Made by a program: the position numbers and the translations under genes. DNA of 64,000 nucleotides from Deltaproteobacteria bacterium. GTDB lineage: Bacteria; Desulfobacterota; DSM-4660; Desulfatiglandales; Desulfatiglandaceae. Position 1 is the stretch's first letter. Each line of letters opens with the position of its first letter. The notes under the pieces are model-generated. The model made no database searches, was not told the DNA's origin, and was given only the letters and a program-made list of their open reading frames with translations. Shown here one piece after another: positions 50,649 to 60,396 of this stretch. The stretch is taken from positions 1-64,000 of the forward strand of contig JAIPDI010000028.1 of assembly GCA_021737785.1 (NCBI GenBank), in the 5' to 3' direction.

Positions 50649-51128
50649 TCAGATTGTGGCGCCCTTGAAATAGTAGACCCCGATCGGATGCCCCTTTGTA
50701 TTGTAGCCCATAAAGACAAACCCGGTGCGCGTCTCCATTGCCACGCGAAACCGTTTTGCAATGGAAGGGTTTTCAAGGATGATCAGGAGCCCGATGGGTC
50801 CCCGGCCTTCGCCCGCTGTGAATCGCCGCTCAAAAAAACTGCGTGTGCGCAGAAGAAGGTCGAGGGCAAGCCCCTTCCTGCGGTACACGATGGACGTCAT
50901 GGAGCGGTAGAAGTAGAAGCTGTTTTGAAATCGTTTGAGGTAGAGTTCCCTGGCCGTGCAAAGGGCCGCGATCTCGCCCCCGGTGGTTCGGGCGATAAAG
51001 ACGGTTTCTTCGGCCCTTTCTTCAGGGTCGGCCAAAAGGGGGAGGGCCTCATGAGCTTCCCAGAAATTCATGATCTCCGCCCTGAGTTGCGCGCCCACCT
51101 TCTGCCATACGCAGGTAAACGAAAACAT
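50649..51128 (-). CDS. GNAT-fold acetyltransferase-like protein
   Basis: 159 aa. The pattern ETVFIARTTGGEIAALCTARE, YRSMTSIVYRRKGLALDLLLRTRSFF and LIILENPSIAKRF, then TGFVFMGYNTKGHPIGVYYF fits a degenerate GNAT fold, with the R-R-K-G-L-A segment in place of the acetyl-CoA loop Q/RxxGxG/A. Substrate unknown. It is on the same strand as the following phosphodiesterase fusion (112 bp) but probably independent. Confidence 0.65.
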   Translation of the reverse strand: MFSFTCVWQKVGAQLRAEIMNFWEAHEALPLLADPEERAEETVFIARTTGGEIAALCTARELYLKRFQNSFYFYRSMTSIVYRRKGLALDLLLRTRSFFERRFTAGEGRGPIGLLIILENPSIAKRFRVAMETRTGFVFMGYNTKGHPIGVYYFKGATI

Positions 51129-51240: not shown

Positions 51241-54084
51241 CTACGTCTCTTCTATCCCTGCCATCCTCTCACCACGCTGACGATACAGCCTCGGATCCAC
51301 GACCCCTGCCATGGCCTCTGCACACAGGTCCCGGCCCAGGAAGTCGCGGACTTGCTCAGCCGTCTCCCCCGGATGCCCGATGCATCGGTCGTGGCGGAGG
51401 TAAAGGACGGGGAGTCCCATCCGGGCAAGGATCCGTTTTCCTGTGGTCGCCTGTCTCTCAAGAACACGTCCCAGATCGCGGTCCGAAAGTCTGGCCCCCT
51501 TTTTCCCCTGCCGCAAGAGGAGGGCTTTCTGGGAAGCGATGACTTCCCGTATGTCCCGCTCCACAAAAATAACTCGATAGGAGATCCCATGTTCCAGGCG
51601 TCCCAAAAGGGGCGCCACGATCTTGATGGCCTTCCCCCGGGCCTCAGGCAGCCACGAGGCATCTTCATGCAGGCGCTTGGCCGGTGCATATTCGAGATAT
51701 CCCTTCGGGTTGTCCTCATCGGCCTCTCTTATGTCGTCTGCCAGGATTGAAAGACCTCCGGCCCGGAGCATCTGCATGATCATGGAGGTCCCTGCGCGGG
51801 GCAGACCCGTCACCACCACCACAATATCGGACAGGTCCTCGGGGGGAGGCATATCCGGAATCCCGGGAACGTCCTGTTCCGCCTCGCGATCCGCTTCTCC
51901 CAAAAGCCCCGGAGATTCCCATACCCGGCTTGAAAGGGTCTTCTGCTCCCTTTTGAACTCCCGGATCTTCCTGGCTGCGTCGCGGGCGGACCGTGCCCGT
52001 TCCGATGCCTTTTCTTTGTTTGCAAGCCTCCGTTTGTAGATATAGGCCAGCCGTTCATGGGCCTTTGCAAAATGCGGGTTTTGATACACTGCCATCTTAA
52101 GGGCCAGCAAGGCCTCGGGAAGCTGCCCCTGGCGGTGGCGGGCCACACCCAGCAGGTAATGGGCGGTCGGGTTGTAATAGACGCGGCCCAGGGATTCGTA
52201 GGCCGCGTCACAGGCCTCCTCCAGTCGCCTGGTGGCAAGGCAGGTCCGGCAGATTCCCAGGTAGGCATCGGCGCTGTCCGGGTCCAGACGGAGGGTCGCC
52301 TGAAAGGATTGTTCCGCATCCTGCCATCGCCGCATCTTGAGATAGACCTGCCCCAGCTTGATATGAAGGCCCGGATCCTCCGGGTTCATGGCCTCGGCCG
52401 TCTTGAGATGCTCCAGGGCCTCCTCCTCTTCCCCTTCCTCAAACAGGATGGCCCCCCTGAGGTATTCCACGGCATACGGGTTGAACGAGGCCTGGGCCGC
52501 CAGGGACCGAAGCCTTCTCCCCTGGGCCTCGGTGATCTCTTCGGGCGTTTTGTCCTTCATCTTTTCTTTAAGGGCCTTGAGGGTTTCACGGGCCTGGGCC
52601 GCACCTCTGTTTTTACGCGCAAGGGTCTCTTCCAGGACCTGTCGGGCCTCCTGGATGCGACCGAGGGACTGGCAGCAGGAGACCAGTTGAAGCCCAAAGC
52701 GGTACTGATCGGGCCAATCCGCAAACAGGGACGCCAGGAGGGGAAGGGCCCTGCCGTGAAGACCCGCATCCATGTAGGAACGGGCCATGTTGTATTCCAG
52801 TTCCCGAACCGTCTGGGCCACGGCCTTGGCCCTGTCCTCATCGGGCGGCTCGATATAGCCCAGGGCCGCCAACTGGGTGAGGGCCTCCCGGGCCTCCACA
52901 GGGTCGATCCGCTTTTCTGGCGGATGCATCCCCGCCTCCCCGGGCACCAGGTCCCAGCTCTCGATGGCGGTGATCTCGAGAGGGAGATCAAAGGCATTGG
53001 CGAGGGGCCGTCCATCCATGTCTTGACCCACCGGCAGGCCGAACAGGGTCAGGATGGTGGGACACACATCCAGGAGACTGGCCCCGAATACCGTCTCATC
53101 TTTCTTTATGCCCGGGCCCCGCATGACAAAGATCCCGTAAGGCCGGTGCTGCGCGGCAGGGCCGGCAGGCTCCAGGGGCACATGGCGGGGCCTCAGGTGG
53201 TCTGACTGGAATCCATGGTCTGAGACCAGGAGTATGGTGGCATCCTCCCCGGCCGCTTCAAGAAGCCTTCCCAGCATCTTGTCATGGAAGATGTATCCGT
53301 TCTCGATCACCTGTCCGTAGATCTCGAAGTCATTTTCCGGGATATGGGGCTGGCGGGGAGGGTGATACCGCATGAAGGCATGGGAAAAATGATCGATGGC
53401 ATCGAAATAGACGGCCGCGAAATCCCAGGGCTCATGGGTCATGATGGCCGTTGCGGCCGAGAGGATGGTGGCTCCGTCGCAGATGACGCGCGACAGGGAT
53501 TCGAGCCGGTGGTCCTTATCCTGATCCACCTCAGCCGCCCTGGGCACAAAGGGGAGGATGTGTCCTGCGTTGAGTTTTTGGGGATGCCACCGCAATTGGG
53601 CCAGATTGCGGACCAGCCGTCCGGGATGCACCGTGCCCGGACGCAGGGGCCAGGGCCGGCCCAGAGGAGGGTAATGACCCGTGTAGAGGTTGGAGACCAT
53701 CACCCCGTTGATCGGCTCAGCCGGGTGGGAGGGCCACCACCCCACCACCACCGACTTCTTCTCCTCCTGGGACAGGATGTTCCAGATGGCCTTGGTCTTT
53801 CGGGAGAGGCTGGTAACGGGCCGGATCCCCCCGGCGTCGGGGTCCGGCTCGGTGAAACCGTGGATGCCGTGTTTGAAGGGCCGCTTGCCCGTGGCGATGG
53901 AGGTCCACAGCATGGGGGAGAGGTCCGGGTGGAGGGTGGCCAGATTTCCCATGACGCCATCCCGGACCATTCGCTCCAGGTTGGGCATTTTGCCGGCATC
54001 CAACAGCGGGTGTATGACCTTCCAATCGGCCCCGTCCCACCCGATCAGGAGCACCCGTCGGCACGGGGGTTCAGATCTCTTCAC
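51241..54084 (-). CDS. Phosphodiesterase-TPR-sulfotransferase fusion protein
   Basis: 947 aa with three modules. Residues 1-400: alkaline-phosphatase superfamily phosphodiesterase/pyrophosphatase with GWDGADW, nucleophile region LSPMLWTSIATGKRP and metal-binding IDHFSHAF and SDHGFQSDHL. Residues about 420-690: TPR repeats, for example LHIKLGQVYLKMRRWQDAEQ and AHYLLGVARHRQG. Residues 752-947: sulfotransferase-like P-loop domain starting VVTGLPRAGTSMIMQML, with RVIFVERDIREVIAS as the 3'-phosphate-binding segment. No signal peptide is seen, so cytoplasmic. The start overlaps the end of the IPTL-CTERM gene by 14 bp. AP-TPR combinations are known; fusion to a sulfotransferase module is unusual. 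Substrates unknown, perhaps a glycolipid or polysaccharide. Confidence 0.82.
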   Translation of the reverse strand: MKRSEPPCRRVLLIGWDGADWKVIHPLLDAGKMPNLERMVRDGVMGNLATLHPDLSPMLWTSIATGKRPFKHGIHGFTEPDPDAGGIRPVTSLSRKTKAIWNILSQEEKKSVVVGWWPSHPAEPINGVMVSNLYTGHYPPLGRPWPLRPGTVHPGRLVRNLAQLRWHPQKLNAGHILPFVPRAAEVDQDKDHRLESLSRVICDGATILSAATAIMTHEPWDFAAVYFDAIDHFSHAFMRYHPPRQPHIPENDFEIYGQVIENGYIFHDKMLGRLLEAAGEDATILLVSDHGFQSDHLRPRHVPLEPAGPAAQHRPYGIFVMRGPGIKKDETVFGASLLDVCPTILTLFGLPVGQDMDGRPLANAFDLPLEITAIESWDLVPGEAGMHPPEKRIDPVEAREALTQLAALGYIEPPDEDRAKAVAQTVRELEYNMARSYMDAGLHGRALPLLASLFADWPDQYRFGLQLVSCCQSLGRIQEARQVLEETLARKNRGAAQARETLKALKEKMKDKTPEEITEAQGRRLRSLAAQASFNPYAVEYLRGAILFEEGEEEEALEHLKTAEAMNPEDPGLHIKLGQVYLKMRRWQDAEQSFQATLRLDPDSADAYLGICRTCLATRRLEEACDAAYESLGRVYYNPTAHYLLGVARHRQGQLPEALLALKMAVYQNPHFAKAHERLAYIYKRRLANKEKASERARSARDAARKIREFKREQKTLSSRVWESPGLLGEADREAEQDVPGIPDMPPPEDLSDIVVVVTGLPRAGTSMIMQMLRAGGLSILADDIREADEDNPKGYLEYAPAKRLHEDASWLPEARGKAIKIVAPLLGRLEHGISYRVIFVERDIREVIASQKALLLRQGKKGARLSDRDLGRVLERQATTGKRILARMGLPVLYLRHDRCIGHPGETAEQVRDFLGRDLCAEAMAGVVDPRLYRQRGERMAGIEET

Positions 54085-54829
54085 GCCGGTTCTTCAATAA
54101 ATGGGCCCCAGATGCCACGATGAGGGCCGCCAGAAAGATCATGCCCCACTCGTTCAGGGTCGGAATGGGTGGGATGACCGGCCCTTGATCGCCGGCCGCG
54201 ATGGACTTACCGGGGACATCTTCGTAGGCCCACCCCGCGATCCGCCCCTCCGACCAGCCCGGGGGATCCCATGTCCCCTCAAAAGCGATCCAGCCATAAT
54301 GGGTGTTGCCGTCGATCTGGAACCGGACCCCAAGGAAACCCTCCTGGTTGATAAAATTACCGACTCTATAAGAGGTAGTATATGTGTAGGTCCCTGCTGT
54401 GTGTATCCTATAAAAGACTCCTGCTGCCAGGTAGCCGTAATATGTCCACGCGCCCGCCATTCCCTGCGACACCATATCGCCCTGCTGGAGTCGATAGGGA
54501 ACGGGATAGTGAGTCGAGCCAACCGCGCTGTTGCCCGTATTCCCTGTCAGTCCCATAAGTTGATTGGTGAAGAAAAGCGTCGTATTGGTACCGTAGTACT
54601 TGGAATAAACAGTTCCGTAATGCACAAAGGAAAAATCCCCAATCCCATCCCCGTTGAGGTCCACGGCTACGGGGGTATGGTCGCGATTGACCACGAGGTC
54701 CTTGGGGCCGCTCCAGTGGATGGCGGCCTGGGCAGGGGCGGTTACGGCCATGGCCGCCCCTGCTGCGGTGGCATAGGCAGCTGCATGTCTCAGACTTCCG
54801 GGCGGTAATGTGGATTTCTTCTTTGACAT
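54071..54829 (-). CDS. IPTL-CTERM exported protein
   Basis: 252 aa. Signal peptide with AAAYATAAGAAMAVTAPAQA and predicted cleavage after AQA (about residue 35). The mature part is Gly/Tyr/Thr-rich with FG-GAP-like AVDLNGDGIGDFSF. The C-terminus is the sorting signal IPTLNEWGMIFLAALIVASG (about 225-245) followed by basic KNRREEI, the IPTLxxWG-CTERM type handled by exosortase H-like enzymes. No exosortase gene is in the window. It is translationally linked with the phosphodiesterase fusion gene by a 14-bp overlap. Function unknown. Confidence 0.88.
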   Translation of the reverse strand: MSKKKSTLPPGSLRHAAAYATAAGAAMAVTAPAQAAIHWSGPKDLVVNRDHTPVAVDLNGDGIGDFSFVHYGTVYSKYYGTNTTLFFTNQLMGLTGNTGNSAVGSTHYPVPYRLQQGDMVSQGMAGAWTYYGYLAAGVFYRIHTAGTYTYTTSYRVGNFINQEGFLGVRFQIDGNTHYGWIAFEGTWDPPGWSEGRIAGWAYEDVPGKSIAAGDQGPVIPPIPTLNEWGMIFLAALIVASGAHLLKNRREEI

Positions 54830-59673: not shown

Positions 59674-60396
59674 TCACTTTCCCATATTTTGGAGCGCAAA
59701 CTCCCAGTTCACCAGATTATCGAGAATCCCCCGGACATAATCGGCACGGCGATTCTGATAATCCAGGTAATAGGCATGCTCCCATACATCTATTGTGAGA
59801 AGCGGCGTCATCCCTTTTGTAAAAGGGACATCGGCGTTTTGGGTCTTGACGATTTTGAGCTTCCCCTGCTCCAGGACCAGCCAGCCCCAACCGCTCCCGA
59901 ACTGTGAAACAGCCGTGTCAGCGAACTCCTTTTTGCAGGCATCGACGCTGCCGAAGGCCTCCTCCATTTTTTGCTTGAGTGCAGCGGGCGGCTCGCCTCC
60001 GCCCTTGGGTGTGAGGCCTTGCCAATAAAAGGAGTGGTTCCAGAATTGGGCGGCGTTATTGAAGATAGCGGTTTTATCCTCCTTGCCGGAAGCCGTTTTG
60101 ATAATATTCTCCAACGGCATATCGGCAAATTTTGTCCCTGCGATGAGCCTGTTCAATTTATCCATGTAGCCCCTGTGATGTTTCCCGTAATGAAAACTGA
60201 TTGTTCTGGCGGATATGACCGGTTCCAGGGCATTTTCTGCATAGGGCAGGGGGGGCAGGGTATAGGGCGGGGGTGCTGCCTGCGTGCGTTGAAAGGCGCC
60301 CCCCATGGCAAGGGAGACAGCCGCGGCCGCAGACGCCACGAGAAAAGTACGACGATCGAGGTTGCAGGAAAAATCAATGCTGCTTTTTTTATCCAT
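59674..60396 (-). CDS. Iron superoxide dismutase with Tat signal
   Basis: 240 aa. The N-terminus has a Tat motif (DRRTFLVAS) and hydrophobic stretch, so the enzyme is exported folded. After cleavage (TQA) comes the Fe/Mn-[53 protein letters not shown] and [15 protein letters not shown] carry metal ligands His, His, Asp and His. Gln in NAAQFWNH favours iron. GAAGGAGGAACGG precedes the ATG. It would protect the periplasm of this anaerobe during air exposure. Confidence 0.93.

Follow-up and report, generated by a model that had tools for sequence, protein, structure and literature searches.

A recurrent phosphodiesterase-TPR-sulfotransferase fusion that probably modifies the exported protein encoded beside it

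What is the substrate of an enzyme that carries a phosphodiesterase-type domain, tetratricopeptide repeats (TPRs) and a sulfotransferase in one chain? The question is raised by a gene in the 64,000-nucleotide stretch analysed here (the window; contig JAIPDI010000028.1 of the deltaproteobacterial assembly GCA_021737785.1), which overlaps a gene for an exported protein. The product of this three-part gene probably decorates the neighbouring exported protein chemically. We propose tentatively, and with slightly less than even confidence, that it is a cytoplasmic enzyme dedicated to that protein, which it modifies, most likely by sulfation, before export. The new elements are a recurrent, unnamed fusion of known domains and an unnamed family of exported partners. 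The features concerned are as follows.

51241 to 54084, minus strand: gene fusing an alkaline-phosphatase-type (AP) domain, TPRs and a sulfotransferase (ST) domain; a single open reading frame (ORF) of 947 codons with a GTG start, 947 amino acids
52990 to 54063, minus strand: AP domain, alkaline-phosphatase superfamily (PF01663), residues 8-365
51985 to 52497, minus strand: core TPR block, residues 530-700, with weaker matches from about residue 470
51274 to 51828, minus strand: compact ST domain, residues 753-937, with GLPRxGTS at 760-767, E798, R843 and S851
54071 to 54829, minus strand: partner gene, 252 amino acids, an exported beta-rich protein with a signal peptide (judged by eye) and an IPTL-CTERM tail
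54101 to 54166, minus strand: IPTL-CTERM sorting motif of the partner, residues 222-243
54071 to 54084, minus strand: 14-bp overlap of the enzyme gene and the IPTL-CTERM gene

Full-length relatives of the 947-residue protein were found in many genomes (32-57% identity over the best aligned segment), and therefore the ORF is not a chance frame. The plus strand at 51241-54084 contains stops in the frame of these coordinates. The GTG start is supported because just three further residues are open upstream (a frame of 950 amino acids) and because the first strand of the fold is also where relatives start. A first-pass annotation, made from the letters of the sequence, had described three modules in one chain and a 14-bp overlap with an IPTL-CTERM gene. 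Both descriptions were borne out: PF01663, TPR families (best E 2e-20, spanning about 470-700) and the sulfotransferase were all matched, and the IPTL-CTERM of the overlapping gene scored above the cut-off in both Pfam and NCBIfam (TIGR04174, 26.1 bits against a cut-off of 20.5). The enzyme is probably cytoplasmic, because no export signal was seen ahead of its N-terminal AP domain; this location fits the use of 3'-phosphoadenosine 5'-phosphosulfate (PAPS).

The tie between enzyme and partner was investigated in related loci. A pattern scan of contigs from GTDB genomes returned 69 loci; the fused gene, in some cases cut by contig ends, is in 38 of them (set A). The neighbours in set A trained the partner profile, and those of the 15 fused loci in sets C and D did not. 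The ORFs in the loci were called mechanically. A partner homologue lay within 4 kb in 38 of the 53 fused loci, in 34 of them on the same strand, counting L050 as fused despite its broken frame and including L018, L028 and L044, which are cut by contig ends. By set, this was 30/38 in set A, 2/4 in the new Nitrospirota and Bacteroidota loci, and 6/11 in the new Verrucomicrobiota loci. The counts exclude the window itself, L078-L085, L164 (gene and contig identical to those of L048), L126 (a copy of L009) and L133 (a copy of L011). As a control, we used 65 ST genes that are not fused to an AP domain, which include the cut TPR-ST frames L135 and L157 (probably fused) and, in all, 22 genes with a frame longer than 300 residues or a flank shorter than 1.5 kb; a partner was within 4 kb of one of them, and that one (L163) adjoins a fused gene. 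After dereplication at 90% identity, the partner was near 35 of 49 fused genes versus 1 of 63 unfused ST genes. AP loci that lack ST served as a second control; of these 13, one had the partner nearby (L040, which encodes an AP-TPR protein). The loci obtained by genome sampling, outside the training of the profile (sets C and D), had the partner nearby in 8 of 15 cases. When whole genomes were searched, with a query alignment built from partners of some of the same genomes, the partner was present in 29 of 33 genomes with a fused gene, 1 of 2 with AP-TPR alone, and 2 of 11 controls with a single ST. The family is represented by a single copy in the window's own genome, adjoining the enzyme gene, and an all-against-all comparison of the ORFs in the fetched loci placed the window's IPTL protein in the commonest family after the enzyme and the single ST. 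Thus, the first-pass proposal of a link to export, made from the overlap, is borne out far more strongly than the overlap alone would allow.

The mature part of the partner gave a confident all-beta model (predicted local distance difference test, pLDDT, 86.1). No structure in the PDB matched it at E ≤0.001, and the best VIA-align match (8b6a; Z 7.1, root-mean-square deviation 4.5, 131 aligned residues) is below the trusted level; a fold assignment was therefore dropped, and a new fold is not claimed either. The C-terminal tail of the partner differs by lineage. It is IPTL-CTERM in the window, L010 and L012, PEP-CTERM in L038, L040, L041, L042 and L163, and a type A tail of the type IX secretion system (T9SS) in L023 and L026. 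Culturable hosts of the pair include Rubritalea marina DSM 17716 (L042) and a Halioglobus strain (L038). It is therefore the body or the leader of the protein that the enzyme is tied to, and not any single route of export. Of the 15 fused loci in which a partner was missing, six had a different neighbouring protein whose sorting domain scored above cut-off: T9SS in L031, L034, L142 and L143, and PEP-CTERM in L166 and L170. The first-pass annotation had advised a search for exosortase or polysaccharide genes nearby. The exosortase part was confirmed in relatives, as XrtH scored above cut-off near the enzyme in L012 and L016. The window's own genome encodes an exosortase-like protein of 472 amino acids (L086:1483-2901, C26), which scored 71 bits against a cut-off of 86 for XrtH, and 51 against 23 for the general model TIGR04178. 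The XrtH profile matches this chain twice in tandem, below the cut-off.

The partners are rich in tyrosine, with a mean content of 5.9% (n=37) versus 3.1% among other ORFs (n=307) and 2.8% among signal-peptide-like ORFs (n=13, a small control); nine other exported neighbours range from 1.1 to 5.9%. This composition is no more than suggestive of a tyrosine acceptor in the partner. An N-terminal basic-(L/I)-x-x-Y element was found in 24 of 39 partners versus 7 of 349 other ORFs, where the pattern was derived from the partners themselves and just three L031 proteins among the seven are independent. The element is missing from the window's own partner and from the Verrucomicrobiota partners except L037. 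The three L031 proteins are exported and are encoded in tandem next to the fused enzyme (L031:10767-14689); they are unmatched by the partner profile and have KR-I-x-x-Y at the N-terminus; the first of them, the one tested, has a T9SS tail.

To what family does the C-terminal domain belong? Pfam PF13469 (Sulfotransfer_3) matched residues 755-788 with 27.0 bits, exactly the cut-off. A PDB search with an ST profile of 54 relatives found SULT1A3 as the best match (4e-7) and further SULTs, and TPST2 matched in the P-loop only (profile positions 4-24, E 5e-4). The AlphaFold2 model of the domain (186 residues, pLDDT 91.9) had SULT1A1, sulfotransferase S4, Teg12, estrogen sulfotransferase and Teg14 as its top Foldseek matches (E 2e-5 to 6e-5), followed by StaL (1.5e-4) and TPST (6e-4 to 7e-4), and the template modelling scores (TM-scores) of the sulfotransferase matches were about 0.5-0.6. 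RapZ (rank 9, 7e-5) and adenylate kinase (rank 50, 7e-4) are also in this list. The PAPS residues agree with the fold. In the P-loop GLPRxGTS of the 5'-phosphosulfate binding motif, R763 is invariant in all 54 rows. In the 3'-phosphate binding motif, R843 is invariant in the 54 rows and S851 is kept in at least 90%, and the pair aligns to an R and an S of SULT1A3. E798, located between the two motifs, is also invariant (54/54). The passages cited from PMC6637879 give as essential sulfotransferase residues a basic one in one PAPS motif, a serine in the other, and Glu or His between them; by this rule we infer that E798 is the catalytic base. Taken together, profile, fold and residues firmly identify the domain as a member of the PAPS-type sulfotransferases, though it is borderline in Pfam, and the P-loop sulfotransferase call of the first pass is upheld, with homology in profile searches. 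The family also has a nearly invariant block of its own, DxxNPxGYxE. An APS (adenosine 5'-phosphosulfate) kinase for PAPS supply is present in the window's genome, and this genome encodes a second PF13469 sulfotransferase (G000:C12:85936-86571; E 2e-28), distantly similar to the present family.

The AP domain was matched by Pfam PF01663 (Phosphodiest) at residues 10-293 with E 3e-29. D17, S56, D231, H235, D289, H290 and H313 are invariant in 33 of 33 full-length proteins. The same seven residues are invariant in a second set (20/20, with residue numbering one lower in that alignment), including three AP-TPR proteins without ST. We take them to be the ligands of two metals and the Ser/Thr nucleophile. 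The nearest solved relatives by sequence are phosphonoacetate hydrolase and nucleotide pyrophosphatases/phosphodiesterases (NPPs), at E 3e-5 and weaker. Sulfatases carry a formylglycine motif, C/S-x-P/A-x-R, at the nucleophile. A sulfatase reading was rejected, as S56 is followed by PMLW and there is no formylglycine motif. The maintenance of the catalytic residues of both domains across phyla bears on a further explanation, in which the protein is a secretion-quality or chaperone factor whose TPRs hold the exported protein, with regulatory catalytic domains and sulfation as a secondary matter. The TPR block is in line with such a role, and so is the basic-(L/I)-x-x-Y element that the three L031 neighbours share with the partners; with catalytic residues so well kept, we regard it as very improbable.

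The architecture was found in seven or more phyla. By their labels in the tree, the fused loci belong to Nitrospirota, Myxococcota, Bacteroidota, Verrucomicrobiota, Planctomycetota, Acidobacteriota, and one Halioglobus (Pseudomonadota). The domain search advised by the first pass thus found the architecture to be widespread. Its reservation that this might be a common known architecture stands as to frequency and fails as to knowledge: no model for it exists in the libraries scanned, NCBIfam names no such protein, and searches of open-licence papers in PubMed Central (PMC) listed no description. The ST family is widespread but patchy. In the window's own phylum, the profile matched 37 of 247 sampled genomes at E 0.001, 17 of them below 1e-60; at 1e-30 it matched 19/295 genomes of Nitrospirota, 2/395 of Bacteroidota and 28/387 of Verrucomicrobiota. 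On the ST tree, the fused/unfused label needs 5 changes (24.1 in shuffles), at least 3 of which are forced, and a single origin of the fusion is not shown. In this tree L050 and L135 were set as fused by hand, rows shorter than 165 residues and duplicates were left out, and the bootstrap is unsettled. The patchiness, as in the 2/395 of Bacteroidota, would suit a transfer of neighbouring genes as a block, with co-occurrence that has no functional meaning. The gene order is not frozen: the partner is upstream or downstream of the enzyme, sometimes on the opposite strand, and its sorting tail varies too. Such co-occurrence is accordingly the most improbable of the explanations considered.

The two catalytic domains also recur as separate genes. 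An AP-profile gene was within 4 kb of 20 of the 65 unfused ST genes, and its strand was that of the ST in 25 of 25 cases in sets B-D and 4 of 6 in set A. In L124, L128, L129 and L132 the genes recur in one order: two AP genes come first, then a gene for a protein of about 280 residues whose N-terminus looks membrane-like, and last a single ST gene. Judged by eye, the first AP of L128, L129 and L132 has a Sec-like leader followed by YIGPGAG (the first AP of L124 is cut), and the second AP of these operons has a leader of the twin-arginine translocation (Tat) type. In L064 (5829-13417), the AP-ST row continues directly into a bifunctional ATP sulfurylase/APS kinase (Pfam), the maker of PAPS, and in L053 a single ST is followed by an ATP sulfurylase/APS kinase, assigned by homology. 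The Verrucomicrobiota locus L163 (2513-10313) contains the fused enzyme, an adjacent pair of split AP-TPR and ST genes, and three partner copies. L040 and L046 encode AP-TPR without a fused ST, and a separate ST is found elsewhere in both genomes; the genome of L039 gave weak matches only.

Some of these loci are in line with a different acceptor. A glycan or glycolipid precursor might be sulfated and phospho-edited in the cytoplasm and later joined to the surface protein, so that the partner would be a carrier and not the direct acceptor. Exosortase cargo has a glycolipid-type link similar to that of T9SS cargo. T9SS cargo is held by glycolipid anchors (PMC7468200). The split locus L186 has in one row AP-TPR, an exported-looking protein, a family 2 glycosyltransferase (GT2) and ST, and the single ST of L123 lies among genes judged from sequence to be for capsule or exopolysaccharide, probably. 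We consider this explanation rather unlikely, as the conserved neighbour is the partner protein itself, and among the families listed (25 of 186) for 121 neighbour proteins of 25 fused loci there was no glycosyltransferase family with at least two matches. The 121 proteins exclude partners, proteins longer than 1000 amino acids and masked ones, and single-member families are mostly outside those listed; one DegT sugar-aminotransferase family is among the listed ones. From the same counts and the probable cytoplasmic location, the first-pass idea that the TPR part positions a polymer between hydrolysis and sulfation received little support, the GT2 of L186 aside.

Modification of the partner itself is the reading that we prefer. 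The TPR part may dock the partner that has not yet been exported. The ST domain would then move sulfate from PAPS to the partner or to something attached to it, where it might be accepted by a tyrosine, by another hydroxyl group or by a sugar that the partner carries. The AP domain could serve as a two-metal, serine-nucleophile phosphohydrolase or phosphotransferase for the same substrate or pathway, given the conserved residues and the roles that family knowledge assigns to them. The modified partner would finally be exported and sorted according to its tail, by exosortase (IPTL, PEP-CTERM) or T9SS.

Several observations weigh against this reading. Gene proximity shows partnership, and not that the partner is the substrate. 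The partner family has no invariant tyrosine and so no fixed acceptor, and in the window a W occupies the position after the signal peptide at which aromatic residues are most frequent. Nine of the 53 fused loci have neither a partner nor a sorting-domain neighbour above cut-off; among them, L159 has a sorting domain just under the cut-off on the other strand, L019 a Soli_cterm protein and L020 a PEP-CTERM-like tail below the cut-offs, while the flanks of L022, L028 and L044 are cut, and the long flanks of L030, L161 and L169 have none by eye. In the Phycisphaerae locus L040 the partner is beside AP-TPR without a fused ST, and therefore the partner tie may be to AP-TPR. The export leaders of the AP proteins in the separate-gene operons would put the AP and ST activities on opposite sides of the membrane. 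Finally, the AP profile matched nothing within 4 kb of 45 of the 65 unfused ST genes, and therefore the ST works in other settings too. That the domain can act alone, with neither AP nor partner nearby, also suits an explanation in which the ST sulfates a small molecule or lipid, the AP domain clears the nucleotide by-product 3'-phosphoadenosine 5'-phosphate (PAP) or the donor, and the exported neighbour serves this response as a sensor or a structural protein. The solved structures closest to the AP domain do include nucleotide pyrophosphatases. However, AP proteins with export-type leaders would have no contact with cytoplasmic PAP, and the partner is left unexplained; we regard this explanation as quite improbable.

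If the partner is modified as we prefer, the proposal can be extended to a multi-phylum system of surface-protein sulfation, in which a perhaps sheet-forming partner, recognised in many lineages through the N-terminal (K/R)-L-x-x-Y, would receive sulfate, perhaps on tyrosine, from the three-domain cytoplasmic enzyme before export by exosortase or T9SS. In this full form it is unlikely; if true, it would amount to a bacterial equivalent of the protein sulfation that takes place in the Golgi, with a second phospho-step. The locus provides a defined candidate enzyme-cargo pair in several phyla, suggests one modification common to the cargo of unrelated sorting systems, and gives a context to the pairing of phosphodiesterase and sulfotransferase that recurs as separate genes.

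One more gene of the window has homologues beside the enzyme.

50649 to 51128, minus strand: gene for a 159-residue protein, downstream of the enzyme gene; homologue beside the enzyme in L011, L012 and L017

The proteins of this family have 159-176 amino acids in the relatives. The L012 copy faintly matches arginine/ornithine succinyltransferases (E 0.045), which hints at an acyltransferase fold. A Fe/Mn superoxide dismutase of the window (59674-60396) has a weak Tat-signal match below the cut-off and is possibly exported. Promoter-like sites (2 versus 1.6 expected) and terminator-like sites (10 versus 5.2 expected, standard deviation 2.5) were uninformative. A defence system was rejected, as the sole PADLOC match was at chance level, to the TPRs (E 0.007).

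How does the pair compare with known systems? The S-layer protein mela_00855 of Methylomirabilis resembles the partner in its signal peptide and IPTL tail; it was located experimentally, and the passages cited from PMC8671808 report glycosylation genes nearby and no BLAST homologue outside Methylomirabilis. The SULT and TPST enzymes (PDB 1cjm, 3ap1, 5wrj) have the fold, the P-loop and the R-x7-S PAPS motif in common with the ST domain, and the sequence match to TPST is limited to the P-loop. Their matched chains are mostly about 220-300 residues long versus 186 here, with the TM-scores given above, and DxxNPxGYxE is peculiar to the present family. The PF01663 phosphodiesterases, represented by phosphonoacetate hydrolase and NPP (PDB 3szy, 2gsn), share the family and the positions of ligands and nucleophile; the AP domain here differs by its fusion to TPRs, by an export signal not being seen, and by a conserved block of its own around VGWWPSHPAEPINGVMV.

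To our knowledge, few cases of bacterial protein sulfation are known, of which RaxX is the best. RaxST, the enzyme that acts on it, is a stand-alone protein, whereas the enzyme here has three domains. In the passages cited on Xanthomonas (PMC6637879), RaxST is a PAPS sulfotransferase whose gene adjoins that of a small secreted protein, which it sulfates before secretion, and the kinds of its essential residues correspond to R763, S851 and E798. RaxX is described there as a precursor of 60 residues that has a double-glycine leader and uses type I secretion, whereas the partner here is beta-rich with exosortase or T9SS tails. By analogy, RaxST and RaxX are the nearest precedent for a sulfotransferase encoded beside its exported substrate.

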